Translations under genes and position numbers: made by a program
Assembly: GCA_016787645.1 (NCBI GenBank)
Contig: JAEUUF010000013.1
Coordinates: 558,001 to 622,000 of the forward strand
Direction of reading: 5' to 3'
DNA: 64,000 nt
DNA from: Cyclobacteriaceae bacterium
GTDB taxonomy: Bacteria; Bacteroidota; Bacteroidia; Cytophagales; Cyclobacteriaceae
The notes under the pieces: generated by a model
The model's input: only the letters and a program-made list of their open reading frames with translations
Told to the model about the DNA's origin: nothing
The model's database searches: none
In this document: positions 14,935 through 26,513 of the stretch, piece by piece
Numbering within the stretch: position 1 is the first letter of the stretch
Layout: each line of letters starts with the position of its first letter

Positions 14935-15459
14935 TTACACCCCTCCGTTCTCCTCGTCTTCGTCCTCCTCTTCATTATCCTGATCGGGCTCAGGCTGGCT
15001 CAGGATTTTGTCCTGGTAGGCGGAAGCCCAATCCACAATCTGTTTCCGCTGTTCGGCGGATAATTTGGCGTCCCAATGAATCGTGAGATAGATGGGCAAG
15101 GGCATTTCGCCTTCGCCAACTTCCTCCTTGATATTCTCCAGGGTCTTGATCTTCTTTCGCTTCGGTAAGCCCGTCCATTCCGAGAGGTTCATTTCCTCGC
15201 GGGCTTCCCGCACATCCCGGGCCACCAGCCAGGAGGTAGGGGCCACCTGGGAATACCATGGGTACTTCGATTCTACCGAGTGACAATCGTAGCAGGAAGT
15301 CATCAGCATCGACGCAATGGGCTCGGGCACTTCACCAGTCGCCAGCAAGTCGGTAGCCGGCCTGGATTGAGGCTCGGGTAACTCCCCGCGGAAGAACTGG
15401 ATGACGATCAGCACGATGACCACACCGGAAAACAAATAACGAAGCCAACGTCCGATCAT
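14935..15459 (-). CDS. Membrane-anchored haem-binding protein (Haem_bd family)
   Basis: A 174-residue protein with an N-terminal membrane helix (residues 7-24) and a single c-type haem motif CYDCH (C56, C59, H60). The context SCYDCHSVESKYPWYSQVAP and GEMPLPIYLTIHW is typical of the Haem_bd domain. The C-terminus is a very acidic tail (DNEEEDEDEE). It is the second gene of the operon with the 129-residue cytochrome upstream (1 base gap) and the amidohydrolase downstream. It is likely an electron-transfer or haem-sensing protein facing the periplasm. Confidence 0.88.
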   Translation of the reverse strand: MIGRWLRYLFSGVVIVLIVIQFFRGELPEPQSRPATDLLATGEVPEPIASMLMTSCYDCHSVESKYPWYSQVAPTSWLVARDVREAREEMNLSEWTGLPKRKKIKTLENIKEEVGEGEMPLPIYLTIHWDAKLSAEQRKQIVDWASAYQDKILSQPEPDQDNEEEDEDEENGGV

Positions 15460-15460
15460 G

Positions 15461-15850
15461 TTACTTCATCATTTTGTTGGCGGTCTTGTCTGCCCATTTC
15501 CTGAGTGACTTGCTTTCCTTCTCAGTCAGCTTCTTGTCGGGGTAGCGCTCGAGAAATTTCTTGGGCGGCATTTCTCCCTTTTCCAGCACTTCAACCATCT
15601 CATCCAGCAAAGAAGCCGCCGCCTTTTTCTCCAGGGTAGGCAAGTTCGCCCAGATCAACTTCTCCTTGGCCTTTTCGTTCTTGGAATCGGCGCTGTGGCA
15701 GCCAATGCATTTGGCATCTATAATGGGTTTGACTTTGGCATCAATGACCAGTCCATTGTCGTTTTGCGGATCCGTCAAGGTATCCTCCTGGATGCCCAGG
15801 AACATGCCCAGCGAAAGCATGAGCGAGAGGGCAATCTTGATAAACATCAT
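15461..15850 (-). CDS. Small periplasmic c-type cytochrome-like protein
   Basis: A 129-residue protein with a signal peptide (residues 1-20) and a haem c motif CIGCH (C48, C51, H52). The segment GEMPPKKFLERYP supplies a candidate methionine ligand, as in planctomycete-type and Haem_bd cytochromes. It is the first gene of the three-gene minus-strand operon. The pairing of two haem proteins suggests they exchange electrons, but the terminal partner is not identifiable. Confidence 0.85.
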   Translation of the reverse strand: MMFIKIALSLMLSLGMFLGIQEDTLTDPQNDNGLVIDAKVKPIIDAKCIGCHSADSKNEKAKEKLIWANLPTLEKKAAASLLDEMVEVLEKGEMPPKKFLERYPDKKLTEKESKSLRKWADKTANKMMK

Positions 15851-18173: not shown

Positions 18174-18569
18174 ATGAAAACCCTGATCCTGATCCTCTTT
18201 ACCGGCCTTCTCCTGACCACGTTTAGTTTTACTACCATTCAGCAGCCCTGGGAGGTTCCGGCCAAATATCAGAAGATGCAAAACCCTGTGAAGGCCTCCC
18301 AAGATGACATGGATATGGCCAAGCAATTGTATGACAAACATTGCAAGTCCTGCCATGGAAAAGCAGGTCTCGGCGATGGACCTAAATCAAAAGAATTGGA
18401 CACGAAGTGCGGTGACTTCTCCAGCGCTACTTTCCAGGCACAATCCGATGGCGAGCTCTTTTATAAGACTACTTTTGGTCGCGACGATATGCCCGCTTAC
18501 GAGAAGAAAGTGGCCGATGACAATGATCGTTGGCTCCTGGTGCATTACATGAGGACCTTCAAGAAGTAA
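18174..18569 (+). CDS. Periplasmic monohaem cytochrome c
   Basis: A 131-residue class I cytochrome c. A signal peptide covers about residues 1-22, and the haem motif CKSCH is at C57, C60 and H61, followed by GKAGLGDGPKS. A distal methionine is likely in FGRDDMPAYEKK. It is the first gene of the electron-transfer cluster and should shuttle electrons in the periplasm between the NrfD/iron-sulfur module and a terminal acceptor or donor. The Crp/Fnr-like site upstream suggests regulated expression. Confidence 0.92.
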   Translation: MKTLILILFTGLLLTTFSFTTIQQPWEVPAKYQKMQNPVKASQDDMDMAKQLYDKHCKSCHGKAGLGDGPKSKELDTKCGDFSSATFQAQSDGELFYKTTFGRDDMPAYEKKVADDNDRWLLVHYMRTFKK

Positions 18570-18573
18570 ACCA

Positions 18574-19122
18574 TTGAACCGGCTCAGGCGTACTTGTCTG
18601 CGCTTTACTGCCCCCCTCATGCTTGCCCTTGCGGCAGGCTGTGGGGGGCAGTCCTCTGATAGGGGCACTTATGCTACCACCTGGCCTTTCTATTTCAAGG
18701 TAAACTGCCCCAACCCGGGTCCTAATTGCCAGGAGGCCAAAAAGTTGCTGGAACGGGAAATCCCCAGGTTCAAGTACACCTTTACTTACGGTTCAAGTCG
18801 CACCTGGCCTTATTATAAGGCCTTTGATCTGGACGAAAAGGTCCCGCTCGACAGCCTTCTCCCCCCTCATTCCCAATTACATCAACTCATCCCCCTGCAA
18901 GACAAGCCACTCTTTGGTGGTGCTGACTATCTGGTGGTCGCCAACCTCTACACCCTTTCCGACTCCATACCTGACTATGTGGTCAGCGTATATCACTTGG
19001 ACACTTCTCCACCCGAACTTTCCGGAACATCCGGTCGACAGGAAGTGCAGCAACGTTCCGGCAAGACACTCTCCGATGCGGAAATTATCCTGCGTTCCGT
19101 GATCCGGTTTTCATTCAAATAG
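18574..19122 (+). CDS. Lipoprotein of unknown function
   Basis: A 182-residue predicted lipoprotein (LALAAGC lipobox, cysteine near residue 23). The gene begins with TTG at 18574, 4 bases after the cytochrome stop; no better ATG precedes the signal peptide. The mature part contains two cysteines (VNCPNPGPNCQEA) and a repeated TWPFYF/TWPYYK-like segment, but no domain I recognise. Close coupling to the cytochrome suggests a role in the same envelope electron-transfer system. Confidence 0.7.
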   Translation: MNRLRRTCLRFTAPLMLALAAGCGGQSSDRGTYATTWPFYFKVNCPNPGPNCQEAKKLLEREIPRFKYTFTYGSSRTWPYYKAFDLDEKVPLDSLLPPHSQLHQLIPLQDKPLFGGADYLVVANLYTLSDSIPDYVVSVYHLDTSPPELSGTSGRQEVQQRSGKTLSDAEIILRSVIRFSFK

Positions 19123-19158
19123 TTCATTTCCAGCTTATTTAGAAGGATTTTAAGGGCC

Positions 19159-19172
19159 TTGATGAGAGTCAT
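19159..19172 (+). promoter_or_regulatory. Crp/Fnr-like site 1 upstream of the YceI-type lipoprotein
   Basis: TTGATGAGAGTCAT fits TGAY-N4-RTCA. Its centre is exactly 22 bases (two helical turns) from that of the next site at 19181-19194, so two regulator dimers could bind the same DNA face. Confidence 0.45.
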
Positions 19173-19180
19173 TGCCTCCT

Positions 19181-19194
19181 TTGACTAATGTCAT
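19181..19194 (+). promoter_or_regulatory. Crp/Fnr-like site 2 upstream of the YceI-type lipoprotein
   Basis: TTGACTAATGTCAT has perfect inverted TTGAC-type arms apart from the last base (TGAC-N4-GTCA). Its centre is about 41 bases upstream of the start implied by the -7 element at 19217. Confidence 0.5.
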
Positions 19195-19216
19195 GATCCA
19201 CCCTTGGGTCGGATAC

Positions 19217-19224
19217 TACATTCG
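19217..19224 (+). promoter_or_regulatory. Candidate -7 promoter element
   Basis: TACATTCG differs in one base from TAnnTTTG and would start transcription near 19228, 37 bases before the ATG at 19265. Confidence 0.4.
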
Positions 19225-19264
19225 AATCATGATTTCGTTTCGCCCACTTAAAAATGTTACTCCT

Positions 19265-20362
19265 ATGAAAACGTTAAGATTAGTTTCATTAATCACGCTT
19301 GTTTTCACTTTCCTCACGGTAGTGAGGTGTAGTGACAGCAAGACTACTACTGTTACTCTTGGAACTCTGTCTGGAACAGTAAAATACACCAATGCAGCAG
19401 GAACAAGCACGGCCGCGCCGGCAGCATTCGTTACCCTTCTTTCCGGAGCAAGCACAGTAATCCAGGTAGTTGCCGACAATACGGGTAAATACAGCATTGC
19501 CAACCTCCCGGCCGGCAGTTACACGCTGAATTCTTCCTTCTATGCAGAACCCACCAACACGGGTGGCCGCTTGAATGGTCTGACCTTCGCAACCGAAGCA
19601 GATGTAGCGGTTACCATGGGCTCATCCAACCTTACCCAGGATCTTACCCTGGTGAACAAAGGACAATCGGGCACTGACCTTGAGGCCGCCGACATCAATT
19701 ATGATTGGACAGGAACAGCTTATGCAAATACCGGAGCATTGACCTATGACAACACCCACAGCCCTGTAGGTTTTGAATTCGCTTATCGTGGAAAAGAAGC
19801 TGATTTCTTTGGTGGTTTTGCACAACTGAAAAAATGCAGAATCGCTTTCGACGTTAACAACCCGACAGCCGGAACAATCGATGTGATTGTTGACCTCGCC
19901 AGCTTTGATACCCGCAGCCCCGGTGGCCGCGATCCTCGCACGACCGTTGCTGACACCCCGCCCTGGGACCCCAATACCCAGTTCACAGAATACGGTTGTA
20001 TTGTTAACAGCACCTTCGGTGTAACTACTGACTCCGGGACAGCGCCCTCCGATGCAACTCCCCAGGTAATCTCCGGCCCGACCCGCTATGCCAGCTTCAC
20101 CAGCACATCCATTGCCAAACTCGGTGACGGTTTCGTAGCCAAAGGCAACCTGGTGTTCCATGGAAACACGGTTCCTATCGAGATGTGGTTCAAACAAGTT
20201 CCTTGCTGGACCAACACTTCGGTAACTCCGAACCGCCGCTACTGGAGCTTTGAAGGAAAATTCCTCATGGATGCCAAGAACAAATGGGCCGTTGTTAACT
20301 CCAGCCTTAACGACGCCATCGTACGGATGCAAATCAGCATCATCGCTTACAAGAACCTCTGA
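19265..20362 (+). CDS. Lipoprotein with carboxypeptidase-like and YceI-like domains
   Basis: A 365-residue predicted lipoprotein (VVRC, C24). Residues about 35-105 form a carboxypeptidase regulatory-like beta domain (SGTVKYTNA, GKYSIANLPAGSYTL). The C-terminal 220 residues resemble YceI (FEFAYRGKEADFFGGF, IDVIVDLASFDTRSPGGRDP, AKGNLVFHGNTVPIEMWF), a lipocalin-like fold that binds isoprenoid quinones or other hydrophobic ligands. The open frame begins at 19172, but ATG 19265 gives the signal peptide. A strong terminator follows, so this gene may be a separate transcript with its own Fnr-like promoter. Confidence 0.85.
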   Translation: MKTLRLVSLITLVFTFLTVVRCSDSKTTTVTLGTLSGTVKYTNAAGTSTAAPAAFVTLLSGASTVIQVVADNTGKYSIANLPAGSYTLNSSFYAEPTNTGGRLNGLTFATEADVAVTMGSSNLTQDLTLVNKGQSGTDLEAADINYDWTGTAYANTGALTYDNTHSPVGFEFAYRGKEADFFGGFAQLKKCRIAFDVNNPTAGTIDVIVDLASFDTRSPGGRDPRTTVADTPPWDPNTQFTEYGCIVNSTFGVTTDSGTAPSDATPQVISGPTRYASFTSTSIAKLGDGFVAKGNLVFHGNTVPIEMWFKQVPCWTNTSVTPNRRYWSFEGKFLMDAKNKWAVVNSSLNDAIVRMQISIIAYKNL

Positions 20363-20377
20363 TCCAGGTCAACAACG

Positions 20378-20403
20378 AAAGGGGGTCTTGAAAGACCCCC
20401 TTT
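20378..20403 (+). terminator. Strong intrinsic terminator
   Basis: AAAGGGGGTC pairs with GACCCCCTTT around a short TTGAAA loop and is followed by further T residues. It ends the transcript of the YceI-like lipoprotein, 15 bases after its stop. Confidence 0.9.
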
Positions 20404-20443
20404 TCTTTCCTAATTTAAGCACATCGCTAACCTCAAATTTTAT

Positions 20444-21697
20444 ATGAAGACGATTCGTATATCCCTGCTGTGTCTATTGATGACCGGGTGCACGTACTAC
20501 GAAAACGAACCTGTGAAGCCGCCGGTCGTGGAGAAATCCGACCCGACCACTACCCTTGAGGCGAAGCATGTGACAACGCCTCCCAACAAGATCACTTCCA
20601 ACTATTGGAAAACCGCAGACTACCTGCCCTTGACCGTGCAGAACCAAGTCACCGGCCAGGTACAGGCCGCGGACGGACTCTTCAATATGAGTGGAACGTT
20701 TGGTGGGCTTACCACATACAATGCTGGCAAAGACCCTCGCGTTAAAATGCAGGCTGCGTATACGACCGACAGTCTTTATGTACTTGTGAGCTGGATGGAC
20801 ACGCTCTATGACGCATCCAACAGCAATTGGATTTATGATGGCCCAACCGACCCCAACAAGGCTGGATCAACTACGGGCTGGACCTCGCAGCGAGCCGATG
20901 ATAATTTTCTCATTTCGTTCGACATGGGCGGCAGCAACCGCGATGTGTGGAACTGGTCGTTCGCCCTCTCCGAACCACTTGGGTATGCCATTGACATGAT
21001 TGACAATGGTTCCGGTGCAACCAACGACGCCGGCAACAAAACCTATGTTCGCAATGCGGTTAGCGACAATCGCGGAGGCCCTCAATATGAATGGGATGAC
21101 ACCGAACAGCACATTAGCCGCAAACCGGCAGGCAGCACAATACTAGACCCCGGATTCTACCTGCTGAATAAAAAGACATTTTCCGGCGACATCGTTGCCG
21201 GTGAAACCTACTACCAGGCCGAATGCGCCCCTTGTCACGGTCCCACCGGTAATGGAGAAGGAACTCCCGCCGGATACGAGACGGGTGTCAAACTCAACCT
21301 CCCCGGTCAATTCAACCGTTGGACTCGCGCCGCCCTAGATGCCTTTGCGCCGAGCGGAAGTCATGAAGGTGCTGTACACTACCCATCATCTGAAACCAAC
21401 CGCGCAAACCTGTTTGCCCGCCTGAGAGGTTTCAGCGGAATCCCGGGTTATTACCTCCAGAATCCTTCGGGCAGTAGTTCCGACATTCACGCCGTGTCCA
21501 ATGCCATCATTGCCAACATCCCCAAGTACAACAAGAAATATCAGGTTCTGTTGATTCGCGCCCTGAACACTAGCCAATCGGATGACATTGTGCTCAACCC
21601 CGCCACGACCACTTATTCCTTCAATTTCTCTTTGCGGGACAATGACCTGATCAATCGGGTCGGAAGCAATACCCAGACGCTCACCTTCAAACCGTAA
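20444..21697 (+). CDS. Lipoprotein: ethylbenzene-dehydrogenase-type domain interrupted by cytochrome c
   Basis: A 417-residue lipoprotein (LMTGC, C16). Residues about 50-200 look like the first part of the EB_dh domain (haem-binding gamma subunit of ethylbenzene dehydrogenase and related molybdoenzymes): VKMQAAYTTDSLYVLVSWMD and DDNFLISFDMGG. A cytochrome c motif CAPCH lies at C261, C264 and H265. After it, the EB_dh part resumes (GIPGYYLQNP, KKYQVLLIRALNT, DDIVLNPATTTYSF). The arrangement suggests a dihaem b/c-type electron-transfer lipoprotein. It shares the sequence CTYYEN after the lipid cysteine with the next lipoprotein. Confidence 0.82.
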   Translation: MKTIRISLLCLLMTGCTYYENEPVKPPVVEKSDPTTTLEAKHVTTPPNKITSNYWKTADYLPLTVQNQVTGQVQAADGLFNMSGTFGGLTTYNAGKDPRVKMQAAYTTDSLYVLVSWMDTLYDASNSNWIYDGPTDPNKAGSTTGWTSQRADDNFLISFDMGGSNRDVWNWSFALSEPLGYAIDMIDNGSGATNDAGNKTYVRNAVSDNRGGPQYEWDDTEQHISRKPAGSTILDPGFYLLNKKTFSGDIVAGETYYQAECAPCHGPTGNGEGTPAGYETGVKLNLPGQFNRWTRAALDAFAPSGSHEGAVHYPSSETNRANLFARLRGFSGIPGYYLQNPSGSSSDIHAVSNAIIANIPKYNKKYQVLLIRALNTSQSDDIVLNPATTTYSFNFSLRDNDLINRVGSNTQTLTFKP

Positions 21698-21703
21698 ACG
21701 GCC

Positions 21704-22075
21704 ATGAAAAAAATATTCATCTTCCTTGTCCTTGCAGTGGCAATCGCCGTGGGCGTGTCCTCCTGCACGTACTATGAAAACCCGGTTGTTCCCGTGGTGG
21801 TGCCGGATTCGGTAAAATTCAGTGCCAACGTGCTCCCCATTTTCGATGCAAGGTGTGACAACCCCGGGTGCCATGCTACCGGCGGCATCAAGCCTGACCT
21901 TACCGCGGCCAACGCTTACAATAGCCTGACCGTCTATGGCTATGTGGATACCGAATTCCCGGACCAAAGCACCCTCTACCTGAAGGTGCACACAGGTTCA
22001 ATGGCCAAGTTCACTCAACCTTCCGACCCTGAAATCATCCTCAAATGGATTCAGCAAGGGGCACTAGACAATTAA
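21704..22075 (+). CDS. Small lipoprotein with non-canonical CX4CH haem motif
   Basis: A 123-residue lipoprotein (VGVSSC, C21) beginning CTYYEN after the lipid cysteine, like its neighbour. The region VLPIFDARCDNPGCHATGG has C51, C56 and H57, a CX4CH spacing instead of CX2CH; similar motifs occur in Bacteroidota lipoproteins with cytochrome-like folds. The C-terminus (EIILKWIQQGALDN) is typical of the last helix of these small cytochromes. It lies 6 bases after the EB_dh lipoprotein and 28 before the barrel protein, clearly in one operon. Confidence 0.82.
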   Translation: MKKIFIFLVLAVAIAVGVSSCTYYENPVVPVVVPDSVKFSANVLPIFDARCDNPGCHATGGIKPDLTAANAYNSLTVYGYVDTEFPDQSTLYLKVHTGSMAKFTQPSDPEIILKWIQQGALDN

Positions 22076-22103
22076 TCCAACACCTAACGCGACATCAAAC
22101 GAT

Positions 22104-22976
22104 ATGAAAACACACAACTTACCCGCGATGATGAAAGGGATCTCCCTCCTGGTCGTATTGACCCTTTCCCTCCCTGCTTTTGCACAGGATGAGGAGGCCG
22201 CAAAAAGCGACAAGAAGGAACTGGCACGGCCAGCATTTGAAAGCGCCTTGCTCGGCGAAATGCAGTCCGTCGTAGTGCAAACTCCCAAGACCCTCGAGTG
22301 GGACTTCATGCACCGCTTTGGAACGGTTGAAAACGGCCTGAAAGACTTCTACGGAATCTATGCGCCGGGTGCCAATATCCGCATGGGCCTGACCTATACA
22401 CCGATGGACAAACTGGCGGTAGGTATCGGTCTTACCAAAGCCAACATGGCGCTGGACCTCAATGCCAAGTATGCCGTTTTCCGTCAAAGCAAAGACAACA
22501 GCATGCCGGTCAGTGTTAGTTACTTTGGCAACGTTGTGGCCAATACCCAGGCGGGCAACTACAAGGAAGAAACACACCGCCTTTCCTTTTACAATGAACT
22601 GATCGTGGCCAAAAGGTTCAACTCGAAGATCTCCGTGCAGATCAGCCCAAGCTTCACCCACTACAATGCAGTCGATACATTGTACAGTAACGACATGTTT
22701 GCAGTGGGAGTCGGTGCCCGCTACAAGTTCTCGGCACAATCGTCCATCATCATCAACTATGTGCAACCGCTCATGAACCACAAGGACTCCAAGCTGAATG
22801 CGCAACCTGGTCTGGCCATCGTATGGGAAATCGCTACCAGCGCCCACGCTTTCCAGATTTTCTTCAGCAACTACCAGGGCATCCTGCCGCAGAACAACAT
22901 CATGTACAATCAGAATAAATGGGGTGACAGCAAATTTCTTTTGGGCTTTAATATTACCCGTCTCTGGAACTTCTAA
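22104..22976 (+). CDS. DUF5777 family outer-membrane beta-barrel protein
   Basis: A 290-residue protein with a signal peptide (cleavage after SLPAFA, about residue 30) and a beta-barrel pattern of alternating strands ending in an aromatic residue (NITRLWNF). Segments EWDFMHRFGTVENGLKDFYGIY and NIRMGLTYTPMDKLAVGIG are typical of DUF5777, often encoded beside YceI and cytochrome c genes in Bacteroidota. It may hold a porin or partner role at the outer membrane for the periplasmic redox proteins. The specific function is unknown. Confidence 0.88.
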   Translation: MKTHNLPAMMKGISLLVVLTLSLPAFAQDEEAAKSDKKELARPAFESALLGEMQSVVVQTPKTLEWDFMHRFGTVENGLKDFYGIYAPGANIRMGLTYTPMDKLAVGIGLTKANMALDLNAKYAVFRQSKDNSMPVSVSYFGNVVANTQAGNYKEETHRLSFYNELIVAKRFNSKISVQISPSFTHYNAVDTLYSNDMFAVGVGARYKFSAQSSIIINYVQPLMNHKDSKLNAQPGLAIVWEIATSAHAFQIFFSNYQGILPQNNIMYNQNKWGDSKFLLGFNITRLWNF

Positions 22977-22986
22977 CATCCGAACT

Positions 22987-23214
22987 ATGAAAGAGCAATC
23001 GTCAAGCCGAAGGAATTTTCTGAAGAAAGGGTTGTTGGCTGCGGCCGCGGTCACCGCCGCTCCTCTTGCTGCGAAGGCTGGTTCCGGTGAAAAAGTGAAG
23101 ATGCTCACCCCGGACGGCAAACTCGTCGAGGTGGACAAATCGGTGATCGCCAAGGCAACCAAGAAGAAGGTAACAAACCAGGAGATTCTGGATTGGCGAA
23201 CCAGCAAGGGCTGA
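22987..23214 (+). CDS. 75-residue Tat-exported protein related to the N-terminus of the next gene product
   Basis: A small protein with a twin-arginine signal (SRRNFLKKG, R8 and R9, then an Ala-rich hydrophobic stretch). The mature part VKMLTPDGKLVEVDKSVI is closely similar to residues 43-60 of the downstream iron-sulfur subunit (VKLLSPDGEIVEVDSSEL). It has no cysteine, so it cannot carry a cluster itself. It ends KKVTNQEILDWRTSKG. The open frame starts earlier, but ATG 22987 places the twin arginines correctly. It may be a separate small subunit or an assembly partner of the NrfD complex. Confidence 0.82.
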   Translation: MKEQSSSRRNFLKKGLLAAAAVTAAPLAAKAGSGEKVKMLTPDGKLVEVDKSVIAKATKKKVTNQEILDWRTSKG

Positions 23215-23309
23215 CGCCTGCTGAAATGCCCGGTGGCCGTGATCCGATCACCACACCAGCATTCGGTAATCATATTGAATATCGGTGAACGAATAACGAT
23301 CAAAACACC

Positions 23310-24257
23310 ATGGACAACGACAAGTCAAAACGCCGGAACTTCATCCGCACGGGTCTCGCGTTAGGCCTGGCCACGGTCGCCGGCGCGGCGAACGAACTGC
23401 TGGGTGACCCCAAAGAAAAGTCCGGCAAAAATACCGTCAAACTCCTCTCCCCCGATGGGGAAATCGTGGAGGTGGACTCTTCCGAACTCAAGCTGGAAAC
23501 CCACGACCATGCTGGCACGATGGCCCGCAATGTCACCGGGCGCGAAGGCATCGAAGGAAGAAAATTCGTCATGGTGATCGACCTGGGCCGCTGCCGCAAC
23601 GCACGCAAATGCGTAACAGCGTGTCAGAAAATGCACCACATCCCCGAAAACAAAGAGTGGCTGCAAGTGAAGTTGATGAAGGACAATGACAACGCGGCTC
23701 CGTACTGGTTTCCAAAGACCTGCTTCCACTGCGACAACCCACCTTGTGTCAAGGTATGCCCTGTGGATGCCACGTTCAAACGTTCCGATGGTCTTGTACT
23801 AATCGATAACGAGCGCTGCATTGGTTGCAAGTTTTGCATGGCCGGCTGTCCGTACTCCACCCGGGTATTCAACTGGGGTGAACCGGAAGTCATAGAGCCC
23901 ACCAGCTGCCCTCCCTACTCACCCGAAACCAGCACACCAAGCAAACATTCCACCGTAGAGAAGTGTGACTTCTGCCCTGACATGGTTCGCGAAGGCAAAC
24001 TGCCGGATTGCGTAACCGCTTGCCCGAACGGCGTATTCTTCTTCGGCGATGAAAATGAAGACACGGTAACTAACGGTTCAGAAACCGTTCGCTTCAGTGC
24101 CTTGCTCAAGGAAAAGTCAGGCTACCGGTATATGGAAGAACTGGGTACCAAGCCCAGGGTGTATTACCTGCCTCCTTCCAGTCGCATGTTCCCGGTAGAG
24201 CGCGGGTTCAAGAACCTCACTCCCGAACTCAAGGCCCGATTCAAAGACGTTCAATAA
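23310..24257 (+). CDS. Tat-exported ferredoxin-like electron-transfer subunit (DmsB/NrfC type)
   Basis: A 315-residue protein with a twin-arginine motif (KRRNFIRTG, R8 and R9), so it faces the periplasm. Four cysteine groups are seen: CRNARKCVTAC (residues 95-105), CFHCDNPPCVKVC, CIGCKFCMAGC and CDFC paired with CVTAC. The first group has Ala98 where the second cysteine of a usual CxxCxxCxxxC set stands, so one cluster may be changed or lost. Such subunits pass electrons between a molybdoenzyme and an NrfD/PsrC quinone subunit, which is encoded next, 7 bases downstream. Confidence 0.92.
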   Translation: MDNDKSKRRNFIRTGLALGLATVAGAANELLGDPKEKSGKNTVKLLSPDGEIVEVDSSELKLETHDHAGTMARNVTGREGIEGRKFVMVIDLGRCRNARKCVTACQKMHHIPENKEWLQVKLMKDNDNAAPYWFPKTCFHCDNPPCVKVCPVDATFKRSDGLVLIDNERCIGCKFCMAGCPYSTRVFNWGEPEVIEPTSCPPYSPETSTPSKHSTVEKCDFCPDMVREGKLPDCVTACPNGVFFFGDENEDTVTNGSETVRFSALLKEKSGYRYMEELGTKPRVYYLPPSSRMFPVERGFKNLTPELKARFKDVQ

Positions 24258-24264
24258 TTGAGTT

Positions 24265-25626
24265 ATGAATATTGAAAAGACATCGAAGTCGCTTCTCAAA
24301 GAGTTCTGGCCGCAATTGTCCAACTGGACAATGCGCGAACTGCTCTGGCTCGGCTTCTGGGGAATCCTGTTCCTCTTTGGAATGTATGCCCTTTACGTAC
24401 AGGTCACTGAGGGCCATATTGTCACCGGCATGCGCGACCATGTGATTTGGGGTGTGTACATCGTCAACTTCATTTTCTTCATCGGCATCGGATACACGGG
24501 TGCTATTCTCGGCGGCTTTTTGCACTTGTTCGATGCGGAATGGCGAAAACCCCTGATGCGCATGGCCGCATTAATGACCGTGATATCCGTCATCATCGGG
24601 CCGTTGTACATCTTGTTGTGCATCGGCCGCCTCGACCGACTTTATTTCCTGTTCATCCATCCCCGGTTGCAGTCGCCCATTGTATGGGACGTTGTTGCCG
24701 TCATGACCTTCCTGGTGGGTGGCGTGCTGTTTCTCTACCTGCTGGCCATTCGTGACTTTGCCATCCTTGCCCGCACGGAAGAAACGATGCCGGCATGGAG
24801 AAGGAAGCTCTATCAATTCTTTTCTGCCGGATTTATCAATACCCGGATGCAGCGCCGTGACCTCAAGCTGGCACTGAATGTACTATCCTTCATCCTGATT
24901 CCCACGGTGATCATCGTGAGTTCCGTGCTCTCCTGGATCTTCGGCATGACGCTGCGGCCCGGATGGCACAGCACCATTTTCGGTCCATACTTCGTTCTCG
25001 CCGCCATATATACCGGCACGGGTGTGATGGTGCTCATCATGTACGCTTTCCGCAAGCTGCACAAACTGGAAGCCTATATCCAGGAGCGGCACTTCGTGTA
25101 CCTGGGTTACATACTCATTGCCCTCGGCGCAGGATATGGATACTTCACGTTCTCCGAGTACCTGACGGACTGGTACACTTCAGAAAAATGGAACGCCGAG
25201 GTCATTCACAAACTGATGGACCTGAACCAATATGGGTGGATGTTCTACTTCGCCAATTTTGCCGGTATCCTGGTTCCCATTATCCTCATTGGCATTCCGA
25301 AATTCCGCTCTATCAATACCATCACTTTTTCCGCGGCGCTTCTCGTCCTTGCGATGTGGTTTAAGCGATACCTCATCATCGTGCCGACCCTTGAGTCTCC
25401 CCTGCTTCCCATGCAGGACATCCGCCCGGAATATGTTCACTACTCGGCCACCTGGGTTGAGTGGGCGCTTACCGGAGCGGGGATCGCCATGTTCATGATC
25501 CTGTTCAAATTGGCCTCCAAATTCATCCCGATTGTGCCGGTTTGGGAAACCGCCGAGCAGATTGAAAAGGAAAAGAAACCGGTGGTTAATAACAATCCTC
25601 AACCCGTCGTTTCATCGCCATCTTGA
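24265..25626 (+). CDS. NrfD/PsrC family quinone-interacting membrane subunit
   Basis: A 453-residue integral membrane protein with about nine to ten helices, recognisable as NrfD/PsrC from its segments VIWGVYIVNFIFFIGIGYTG and FYFANFAGILVPIILIGIP and from its position after the ferredoxin-like subunit. It would exchange electrons with the quinone pool. No molybdopterin catalytic subunit follows. The 3' end overlaps the possible TTG start of the next gene. The hydrophilic C-terminal tail (QIEKEKKPVVNNNPQP) is cytoplasmic or linker-like. Confidence 0.9.
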   Translation: MNIEKTSKSLLKEFWPQLSNWTMRELLWLGFWGILFLFGMYALYVQVTEGHIVTGMRDHVIWGVYIVNFIFFIGIGYTGAILGGFLHLFDAEWRKPLMRMAALMTVISVIIGPLYILLCIGRLDRLYFLFIHPRLQSPIVWDVVAVMTFLVGGVLFLYLLAIRDFAILARTEETMPAWRRKLYQFFSAGFINTRMQRRDLKLALNVLSFILIPTVIIVSSVLSWIFGMTLRPGWHSTIFGPYFVLAAIYTGTGVMVLIMYAFRKLHKLEAYIQERHFVYLGYILIALGAGYGYFTFSEYLTDWYTSEKWNAEVIHKLMDLNQYGWMFYFANFAGILVPIILIGIPKFRSINTITFSAALLVLAMWFKRYLIIVPTLESPLLPMQDIRPEYVHYSATWVEWALTGAGIAMFMILFKLASKFIPIVPVWETAEQIEKEKKPVVNNNPQPVVSSPS

Positions 25627-25649
25627 TACGCATGATTAACCTGAATAAA

Positions 25650-26513
25650 ATGAAAACCTTGATTTTCCTGACCTTGATGATTCCTGCGATGGTTTTTCAG
25701 GCAACTGCGCAGGATCAGTTGGCCATAGCTATTGAATTGGTTGCCACCCAAAAAGGCGACCAGGGGGTTGACCTAAAGGCTACGGTGACCGATGAAGAAA
25801 ATAGTGAACCTGTGAAAGGCCTTGCGCTGCAGTTCAGCGGCGCCGTGGGCGATCAGACCGTTGCACTGGGTGAAGCCGTCACCAATGAGGCCGGCATTGC
25901 CGAGTTGAAAGGCGGAAGCCTCGAAGCCCTCCGCAAGGCCGGACACTCGTTTACCTTTACCGCCACCTTTGCCGGCGATGATAAATTCCTCAAGAATGAA
26001 GCCTCTGTGGATGTTGCCGAGGTGGCCATTATCCTGAAAACCGAAACCATCGACTCGGTGAACACCGTGACCGTTGCGGTGAATTCCTGGAATGAAAAGG
26101 GAGAAGTGGTTCCCTTCAAAGAAGGCGAAGTAAAAGTCTACGTACCCCGCATGTTTAGCTTACTGCCCATTGGGGACATTACTACGGATGAAGAAGGCAA
26201 TGGCGAATTGAAATTCCCCTCCGACCTGCCCGGTGGTGTCAATGGCGAACTCACGATTACCGCACGGATCGAAGAGCATGAAAGCTTTGCCAACGCGGAA
26301 GCCGCCGTGCCTGTAACCTGGGGTCTGAAGCATGACCCACAAGCCACCAAACTTCCCAGGGCGTTGTGGAGTCCGGATGCACCCTTGTGGATGGTGATCA
26401 CCTTCGTCATCCTGATGGTGGGCGTATGGTACCACTACGGCCTGATCGTTTATGAATTGATCCAGGTGCACCGCTTAAGCAAGCCAACGGATCCTATCGA
26501 CTACTCCGAGTAG
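25650..26513 (+). CDS. Membrane-anchored protein with Ig-like domains
   Basis: A 287-residue protein with a signal peptide (MKTLIFLTLMIPAMVFQATAQ is the likely N-terminus, 21 residues: cleavage after the last Gln region), two Ig-like beta domains (DLKATVTDEEN...AGIAELKGGSLEAL and GEVKVYVPR...TTDEEGNGELKF) and a single C-terminal membrane helix (LWMVITFVILMVGVWYHYGL). ATGs at 25632 and 25650 are both possible starts; the second gives the cleaner signal. It is the last gene of the electron-transfer cluster and may brace the periplasmic components. No catalytic motif is seen. Confidence 0.75.
   Translation: MKTLIFLTLMIPAMVFQATAQDQLAIAIELVATQKGDQGVDLKATVTDEENSEPVKGLALQFSGAVGDQTVALGEAVTNEAGIAELKGGSLEALRKAGHSFTFTATFAGDDKFLKNEASVDVAEVAIILKTETIDSVNTVTVAVNSWNEKGEVVPFKEGEVKVYVPRMFSLLPIGDITTDEEGNGELKFPSDLPGGVNGELTITARIEEHESFANAEAAVPVTWGLKHDPQATKLPRALWSPDAPLWMVITFVILMVGVWYHYGLIVYELIQVHRLSKPTDPIDYSE

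Follow-up and report, generated by a model that had tools for sequence, protein, structure and literature searches.

A ten-gene cluster of a Cyclobacteriaceae bacterium likely encodes a compact, molybdenum-free quinol:cytochrome c oxidoreductase resembling alternative complex III

Analysis of a 64,000-nucleotide stretch of the genome of a Cyclobacteriaceae bacterium (the window; GenBank assembly GCA_016787645.1, contig JAEUUF010000013.1, positions 558,001 to 622,000) revealed a cluster of genes for periplasmic electron transfer at positions 18174 to 26513. Four of the products, an iron-sulfur (FeS) ferredoxin exported by the twin-arginine translocation (Tat) pathway, an NrfD-type membrane subunit, a membrane protein with immunoglobulin (Ig)-like domains, and a monoheme cytochrome c, likely constitute a compact, molybdenum-free quinol:cytochrome c oxidoreductase that resembles alternative complex III (ACIII) and that, in clusters of the window type, would pass electrons to heme lipoproteins of the cell envelope. 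The initial annotation of the window had named eight gene types and had noted that no molybdenum catalytic subunit is encoded there. Pfam and NCBIfam searches of the window confirmed both points; all eight types are present on the plus strand, with the EB_dh-type and Ig-like assignments below cut-off. Two genes had been overlooked, one encoding a 182-amino-acid (aa) predicted lipoprotein and one encoding a 75-aa Tat protein.

The source genome comprises 4.02 Mb in 28 contigs. A profile of 40 NrfD sequences of the module was compared with solved structures and matched four ActC sequences with E values of 4e-95 to 2e-106 (best matches, 6f0k_C at 2e-106 and 6btm_C at 1.2e-103); the only other matches were to ActF (7e-10 to 1.4e-17). 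The genome also encodes a true ActC (6btm_C, 5e-207), and the genes beside it are, judging from the gene order of ACIII, presumably those of ActB-, ActD-, and ActE-like proteins. Searches against a three-protein database aligned the module NrfD with the genome's own ActC at 28% identity (5e-43), the module ferredoxin with the ActB part at 27% (2.1e-27), and the module cytochrome c with the ActE-like protein at 29% over 96 aa (2.5e-13). The quinone site of ActC includes His139, Ser164, and Asp169, and His139 has been proposed to deprotonate the quinol (PMC8076601, section 7). In a numbered alignment to 6f0k_C, Ser164 and Asp169 correspond to Ser137 and Asp142 of the module NrfD, which are invariant in all 101 alignment rows (100 distinct sequences). 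Two of the three quinone-site residues are thus retained, which speaks against a loss of the site.

The ferredoxin has four cysteine motifs and 15 cluster cysteines rather than 16. The second cysteine of motif I is absent in 111 of 112 alignment rows (109 distinct sequences, with the window counted twice), 106 of which carry the asparagine found at position 97 of the window's protein, and motif III is complete in all 112. In the genome's own ActB, it is motif III, not motif I, that is without its second cysteine. In the NarH/PsrB fold, the cluster served by motif I is distant from the quinone, and that served by motif III is close to it. The altered cluster site would therefore face the electron acceptor.

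The AlphaFold2 model of the Ig-like subunit (predicted local distance difference test [pLDDT] score, 92.5) consists of a chain of beta domains, apparently two, and one C-terminal helix (residues 246 to 276). Its fold matched generic Ig/macroglobulin-type domains only, and its sequence matched Big_1 and Big_3_5 at about 2e-5, both below cut-off. In ten proteins of 717 to 757 aa, this subunit is fused to the C terminus of NrfD (Ig part, 1e-76 to 6e-86). A different fusion occurs in four caa3-linked paralogues, where one polypeptide combines the cytochrome domain of the 131-aa protein (3e-27 to 3e-33) with the second half of the Ig subunit, including its transmembrane (TM) helix (1e-31 to 1e-35). 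The two kinds of fusion tie NrfD, the Ig subunit, and the cytochrome c together. Judged from their sequences, the FeS, NrfD, Ig, and cytochrome c proteins probably form one complex, and the 131-aa cytochrome c is proposed as its electron acceptor.

Relatives of the cluster were collected by searching ferredoxin alignment A1 in titled species genomes. At least 560 candidate stretches were obtained at an E value of 1e-3 or better, possibly including distant ferredoxins, and the best 80 were retained as loci. The titles of 79 loci are names that we place in Bacteroidota, and one is titled "uncultured bacterium." Carriers available in culture include Lutibacter, Flavihumibacter, Aestuariivivens, and [Muricauda] meishanensis. 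Two loci in which no NrfD was called were left out of the gene-order counts (n = 78), which are lower bounds because the gene caller was crude (antisense frames were miscalled in locus L044). Among these 78 loci, the FeS protein was found in 76, the cytochrome c in 66, and the Ig subunit in 61, being fused to NrfD in others.

The proximity of PF00384, CuA, ActC, and NosZ matches was scored in 40 of the 80 loci (39 genomes), picked by hand, mostly from longer contigs, and not at random. In 7 of the 39 genomes, a copy of the ferredoxin gene had a CuA match (to the CuA end of a NosZ model) at a distance of 6 to 7 kb. In all four of these regions that were read, the genes for FeS, NrfD, and cytochrome c/Ig-TM proteins are followed by genes for COX1, COX3, COX4, and a heme-bearing COX2, and SCO is present in three. 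Pfam was run on the genes of L124 and on the SCO of L127, and the genes of L125 to L127 match these at 58 to 96% identity. Also, serine replaces the second cysteine of motif IV in the ferredoxins of all four regions (L124 to L127), a second altered cluster site. No ActA, molybdenum (Mo)-like ActB half, or ActF was seen in the four regions, and no ActC match above 33% identity was found in any of the seven genomes, in which bc1 was not searched for. ActC is present at 61 to 96% identity in 29 of the other 32 genomes; thus, 7 of 7 caa3-linked genomes versus 3 of 32 others are without ActC (Fisher test, 7.8e-6, among related genomes; kinship was ignored in this and all other genome-set statistics). 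In Flavobacterium johnsoniae, cytochrome aa3 obtains its electrons solely from ACIII (PMC8552683). The simplest reading of a caa3 operon in genomes in which no ActC was found is that the compact unit substitutes for ACIII, and it is from this linkage and absence that we infer a quinol:cytochrome c oxidoreductase activity. Some related lake bacteria thus seem to use the compact unit in place of the usual complex III.

The gene order sought in relatives does recur, including in the part of the operon predicted to act at the outer membrane. DUF5777 was found in 56 of the 78 loci, the CX4CH lipoprotein in 53, the small Tat gene in 29, EB_dh in 18, and YceI in 14. The CX4CH gene lies directly upstream, on the same strand, of 57 of 62 DUF5777 genes. 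The upstream neighbor of these 57 pairs is an EB_dh-type gene in 17, a 5- or 6-heme cytochrome gene in 14 (with MtrC/MtrF-like domains in two multiheme examples, L025 and L036), a YceI gene in 9, a long relative of CX4CH in 7 (one with a Planctomycete cytochrome C domain), another gene in 2, and absent or on the opposite strand in 8. As this neighbor is exchanged, the outer-membrane-type genes tend to form a block with one exchangeable redox lipoprotein. In the CX4CH lipoprotein, the lipobox residue Cys21 and residues Cys51, Cys56, and His57 are invariant in 47 aligned sequences, the window included, and some of the 47 have a standard CXXCH. By this conservation, the lipoprotein is a heme c protein. 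In many EB_dh homologues (alignment A3), for example, those of L051, L056, L063, and L068, a CX3CH motif (CYASCH or CAASCH) replaces or accompanies the inserted CXXCH domain; this motif may be an unusual heme c site. The DUF5777 model has 12 strands (pLDDT, 91.7), and its matches include KdgM, NanC, and, by Foldseek, OmpG with a TM score of about 0.4; the autotransporter, FapF, and OmpG matches show the fold only. At positions +2 to +7, the module lipoproteins have 1.0 to 2.0 acidic residues (class means) versus 0.56 in 59 other lipoproteins predicted by a crude predictor.

In the proposed mechanism, menaquinol would bind NrfD near the periplasm, as homology and the conserved residues suggest. 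The ferredoxin clusters would relay electrons to the cytochrome c, which, going by the two kinds of fusion, would be docked on the Ig-TM subunit, and the cytochrome c would deliver them to envelope acceptors. For the caa3-linked paralogues, the acceptor would be the terminal oxidase. For the window's own version, we infer that the most likely acceptors are the EB_dh-cytochrome c and CX4CH lipoproteins, which would reside at the outer membrane together with the DUF5777 barrel; periplasmic reductases such as NosZ are perhaps also served. Since the operon combines the core with heme lipoproteins and a 12-stranded barrel, electrons may also reach the outer envelope. The initial annotation had offered, as one of two explanations, a module that links the quinone pool to outer-membrane acceptors directly. 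The heme lipoproteins and the barrel are compatible with this idea, which is modified here in that the core looks like an ACIII-type quinol:cytochrome c oxidoreductase, because its paralogues are in operons with a caa3-type oxidase where no ActC was found.

Several observations weigh against this assignment. The position of ActC His139 is Cys119 in the window and is occupied by C in 53, D in 43, S in 3, E in 1, and H in only 1 of the 101 NrfD rows. The best curated family of the ferredoxin is DsrO rather than an ACIII subunit, in a collection (NCBIfam) that listed no ActB. The absence of ActC rests on metagenome-assembled genomes (MAGs) of untold completeness, as holds for the relatives' genomes in general, and three genomes without a caa3 link also lack ActC. 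The seven caa3-linked genomes are MAGs of related lake Bacteroidota, so the replacement of ACIII may have been one event. ACIII is present in the window genome and in 29 of the 39 relatives, so that in most cases the module supplements ACIII and has a different role. The predicted outer-membrane part raises two further points. A cytochrome can be sheathed only by a barrel of sufficient size, and the 12-stranded model suggests a barrel that seems too small for an Mtr-type cytochrome sheath. A surface-export signal of lipoproteins, K-(D/E)2, is described in PMC5080379; the window's three lipoproteins do not carry it, and their surface exposure is thus only putative.

The strongest competing explanation is that the whole operon forms one chain to extracellular or surface-bound acceptors (minerals, humics, or shuttles), with the EB_dh-cytochrome c, CX4CH, and DUF5777 proteins as the outer-membrane exit. 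This is a possible reading, although a less probable one than that of a compact oxidoreductase. The adjacency of CX4CH and DUF5777, many such pairs being preceded by a gene for a redox lipoprotein or a multiheme cytochrome, speaks for such an exit, as do the MtrC/MtrF-like domains mentioned above and collagen-like stretches, below cut-off, in three proteins. Moreover, the NrfD/FeS pair SirCD is described as serving ferric citrate respiration in Shewanella, and CbcSTU is described as linked to extracellular electron transfer (PMC11434368). However, the window version has single-heme motifs only, its barrel is modeled with 12 strands, and its surface-export signals are not clear. The strand number also weakens the idea of a split Cyc2-like or Mtr-like conduit made of CX4CH and DUF5777.

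It is rather unlikely that the module's cytochrome c instead feeds NosZ and other periplasmic N-oxide or oxygen reductases while the outer-membrane genes have a separate role. Here, the module was scored as present in family and phylum genomes when a ferredoxin matched at 1e-80 or better; at most 23 (family) or 7 (phylum) candidates were scored per genome, so the tallies are lower bounds. The module occurs in at least 17 of 98 family genomes and in at least 7 of 296 sampled phylum genomes with completeness of at least 90%. Of the family genomes, 16 of the 17 with the module versus 41 of the 81 without it encode clade II NosZ (Fisher test, 8e-4); G092 and G046, in which the gene is split or partial, were scored as positive. 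NrfA (matches above 500 bits) showed no such link, being present in 6 of 17 versus 33 of 81. Of the 39 genomes, 24 carry NosZ; in two of these, it lies 5 and 7 kb from the module (Poisson, 0.011 for distances of up to 10 kb), and in two others, the distances are 21 and 35 kb. Downstream of the module in the congener locus L037 (14160 to 15906) are genes for a small cytochrome c and for a distantly CcoN-like member of the COX1 family; this might be a NorCB-type or divergent oxidase. On the other side, 41 of the 81 module-negative genomes have NosZ, so the module is not needed for NosZ; NosZ is above cut-off in only 24 of the 39 titled genomes; and copper nitrite reductase (NirK) is above cut-off in 0 of 17 versus 15 of 81 genomes (P = 0.066). 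The conserved outer-membrane pair is left unexplained, and the NosZ association is uncorrected for relatedness. On a single contig (L130 and L131), a segment of about 26 kb that looks like a low-oxygen respiration island contains NosZ and a cbb3-type oxidase cluster besides the module.

An inward chain, in which electrons from an outside donor pass through outer-membrane cytochromes to an NrfD complex that reduces quinone, is improbable. The direction is not fixed by the genes alone, and the related QrcABCD and Nhc systems are listed as cytochrome:quinone reductases (PMC8076601, Table 1). However, the caa3-linked paralogues imply quinol oxidation, and the CRP/FNR-type regulators that adjoin three scanned copies (L033, L065, and L078) fit anaerobic respiration. 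In the window itself, CRP/FNR-like sites gave two matches versus 1.79 expected by chance, neither of them near the operon.

The other explanation in the initial annotation, a catalytic subunit encoded elsewhere, started from the view that these partners normally surround a complex iron-sulfur molybdoenzyme (CISM). The four-motif ferredoxin and the NrfD/PsrC-type membrane subunit are indeed CISM-like. The premise is too narrow: numerous NrfD/FeS pairs work with partners that contain no molybdenum, as in NrfABCD, MccACD, DsrMKJOP, Nhc, and ACIII (PMC8076601, Table 1) and in SirCD and CbcSTU (PMC11434368). The source genome encodes a single PF00384 protein, whose gene shares the contig of the cluster at a distance of about 217 kb; it belongs to the FdhF/YdeP family (927 bits; cut-off, 582) and has no evident Tat signal. 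The gene preceding it is one that we take to encode an FdhD-like protein. Across 60 module copies in the 39 genomes, no PF00384 match shares a contig with a copy at less than 76 kb (the distance in G102). PF00384 is without any match in six genomes, and in six more (G101, G120, G124, G128, G129, and G136) the sole match is weak (20 to 40 bits), lies about 2 kb or less from ActC, and presumably represents ActB; in the other 27, PF00384 proteins are encoded elsewhere. Neither in the source genome nor around the 60 copies was a bis-molybdopterin guanine dinucleotide catalytic subunit found encoded with the FeS and membrane subunits, and the conserved molybdopterin oxidoreductase looked for near homologous loci did not appear. 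Despite the domains shared with CISM enzymes and a weak resemblance of EB_dh to the gamma subunit of type II dimethyl sulfoxide reductases, completion of the complex by a distant molybdoenzyme is thus largely refuted and highly implausible.

Comparison with known systems places the compact unit closest to ACIII (ActABCDEF), with which it shares an ActC-like NrfD, an ActB-like ferredoxin, an ActE-like monoheme cytochrome c, the linkage of some copies to a caa3-type oxidase, and the proposed quinol:cytochrome c oxidoreductase role. It differs in the absence from the operon of the pentaheme ActA, the Mo-like ActB half, ActD, and ActF (the second NrfD), in the added Ig-TM subunit, in the site of the ferredoxin cysteine gap (motif I rather than III), and in the His139 position, which is mostly Cys or Asp. 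On sequence grounds, the module would work like ACIII yet is not ACIII by composition. DsrO and DsrP are the best NCBIfam matches of the ferredoxin (5.1e-52; 176.6 bits; cut-off, 200) and NrfD (59.9 bits; cut-off, 350), both below cut-off, and DsrMKJOP also has a cytochrome c partner; the module operon is without DsrM, DsrK, and the triheme DsrJ, and the missing second cysteine of motif I in its ferredoxin may be a further difference. SirCD of Shewanella and CbcSTU of Geobacter, compared by description, likewise pair a ferredoxin with an NrfD-type quinol dehydrogenase, have no molybdenum subunit, and pass electrons to c-type cytochromes (PMC11434368), whereas the module has a monoheme cytochrome, an Ig-TM subunit, and outer-membrane lipoprotein and barrel genes. 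As in MtrCAB and Cyc2 conduits, the barrel gene adjoins heme protein genes, and some relatives carry MtrC-like multiheme lipoproteins; in contrast, the barrel model is 12-stranded, the window proteins are single-heme, and no MtrA-like gene lies in the operon. QrcABCD also combines NrfD and a ferredoxin with a periplasmic cytochrome partner, but the module operon has no QrcA or QrcB, and its NrfD scores 51 bits against a QrcD cut-off of 570.

The cluster comprises ten genes, all on the plus strand and, with the starts chosen here, separated by 4 to 139 bp (Table 1). Weak relatives of the 182-aa lipoprotein adjoin the operon in L024, L040, L042, and L044. The EB_dh-type domain scored 1.1e-7 (32.6 bits), just below the cut-off of 33.3, and the cytochrome c domain inserted in it (residues 251 to 306) scored 21.6 and 21.5 bits with two models, one below its cut-off and the other just above. 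The mature part of the 75-aa Tat protein resembles the N-terminal extension of the ferredoxin (TPDG-LVEV stretch), and several relatives match both proteins; it is possibly an assembly factor or anchor. A variant arrangement, with genes for a 7-heme membrane cytochrome and a protein with three or four TM helices directly before FeS-NrfD, was seen in L065, L079, L081, L083, L087, L090, L094, L101, L102, and L116; in L065, the latter protein belongs to the cytochrome b561 family. Upstream of the cluster, two Haem_bd (PF14376) proteins are encoded on the minus strand (14935 to 15850), and genes alike by their first residues are also upstream of the cluster in L044, the nearest relative. An antisense open frame of 394 aa (22119 to 23303, minus strand) overlies DUF5777, with one of 390 aa at the same place in L044, and is probably a codon-bias effect.

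Table 1. Genes of the cluster in the window
Product	Positions	Strand	Evidence or remark
Monoheme class I cytochrome c, 131 aa	18174..18569	+	PF13442, 1.1e-10
Predicted lipoprotein, 182 aa	18574..19122	+	No Pfam or NCBIfam match; TTG start in open reading frame (ORF) list
YceI-like lipoprotein with N-terminal regulatory-like domain	19262..20362	+	PF04264, 9.2e-8, residues 161-220 only
Lipoprotein with EB_dh-type domain and inserted cytochrome c domain (CXXCH)	20444..21697	+	PF09459, residues 93-407
Small lipoprotein with c-type heme motif CX4CH	21704..22075	+	No Pfam match; lipobox Cys21
DUF5777 outer-membrane beta barrel	22104..22976	+	DUF5777, 3.4e-77; 12 strands in model
Tat protein, 75 aa, paralogue of ferredoxin N-terminal extension	22987..23214	+	Translation; TIGR01409
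Tat-exported ferredoxin, DsrO/ActB-like, 15 cluster cysteines	23310..24257	+	PF13247, 1.8e-21; NCBIfam DsrO
NrfD-type quinol-site membrane subunit, ActC-like	24265..25626	+	PF03916, 3.3e-27
Periplasmic Ig/MG (macroglobulin)-domain subunit with C-terminal TM helix	25650..26513	+	ATG at 25650; listed ORF has TTG at 25623

No paper describing an FeS-NrfD-Ig-cytochrome c cluster was found in our searches of the open-licence PMC literature. In section 5 of a 2021 survey of NrfD proteins (PMC8076601), the Bacteroidetes entries are ActC/F and two NhcC only, so the NrfD group of the module is not set apart there. The chances are about even that the compact unit represents a separate class of complex III, the smallest ACIII-like oxidoreductase, scattered in Bacteroidota, which replaced ACIII before caa3 in some lineages and became wired to the outer membrane in others. 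Two questions are described as open (PMC8076601): by what means NrfD-type subunits couple the oxidation of quinol to the formation of a proton gradient, and whether the iron-sulfur clusters of ACIII act as a wire or form a dead end, the latter having been proposed for one ACIII (PMC8552683). If the proposed function is true, the ferredoxin would, as there is no ActA heme wire, be the sole route from quinol to cytochrome, so that both questions could be tested in a minimal system. No subunit need then be missing from the cluster, and the module would add an unassigned electron route to many aquatic Bacteroidota, N2O reducers included.

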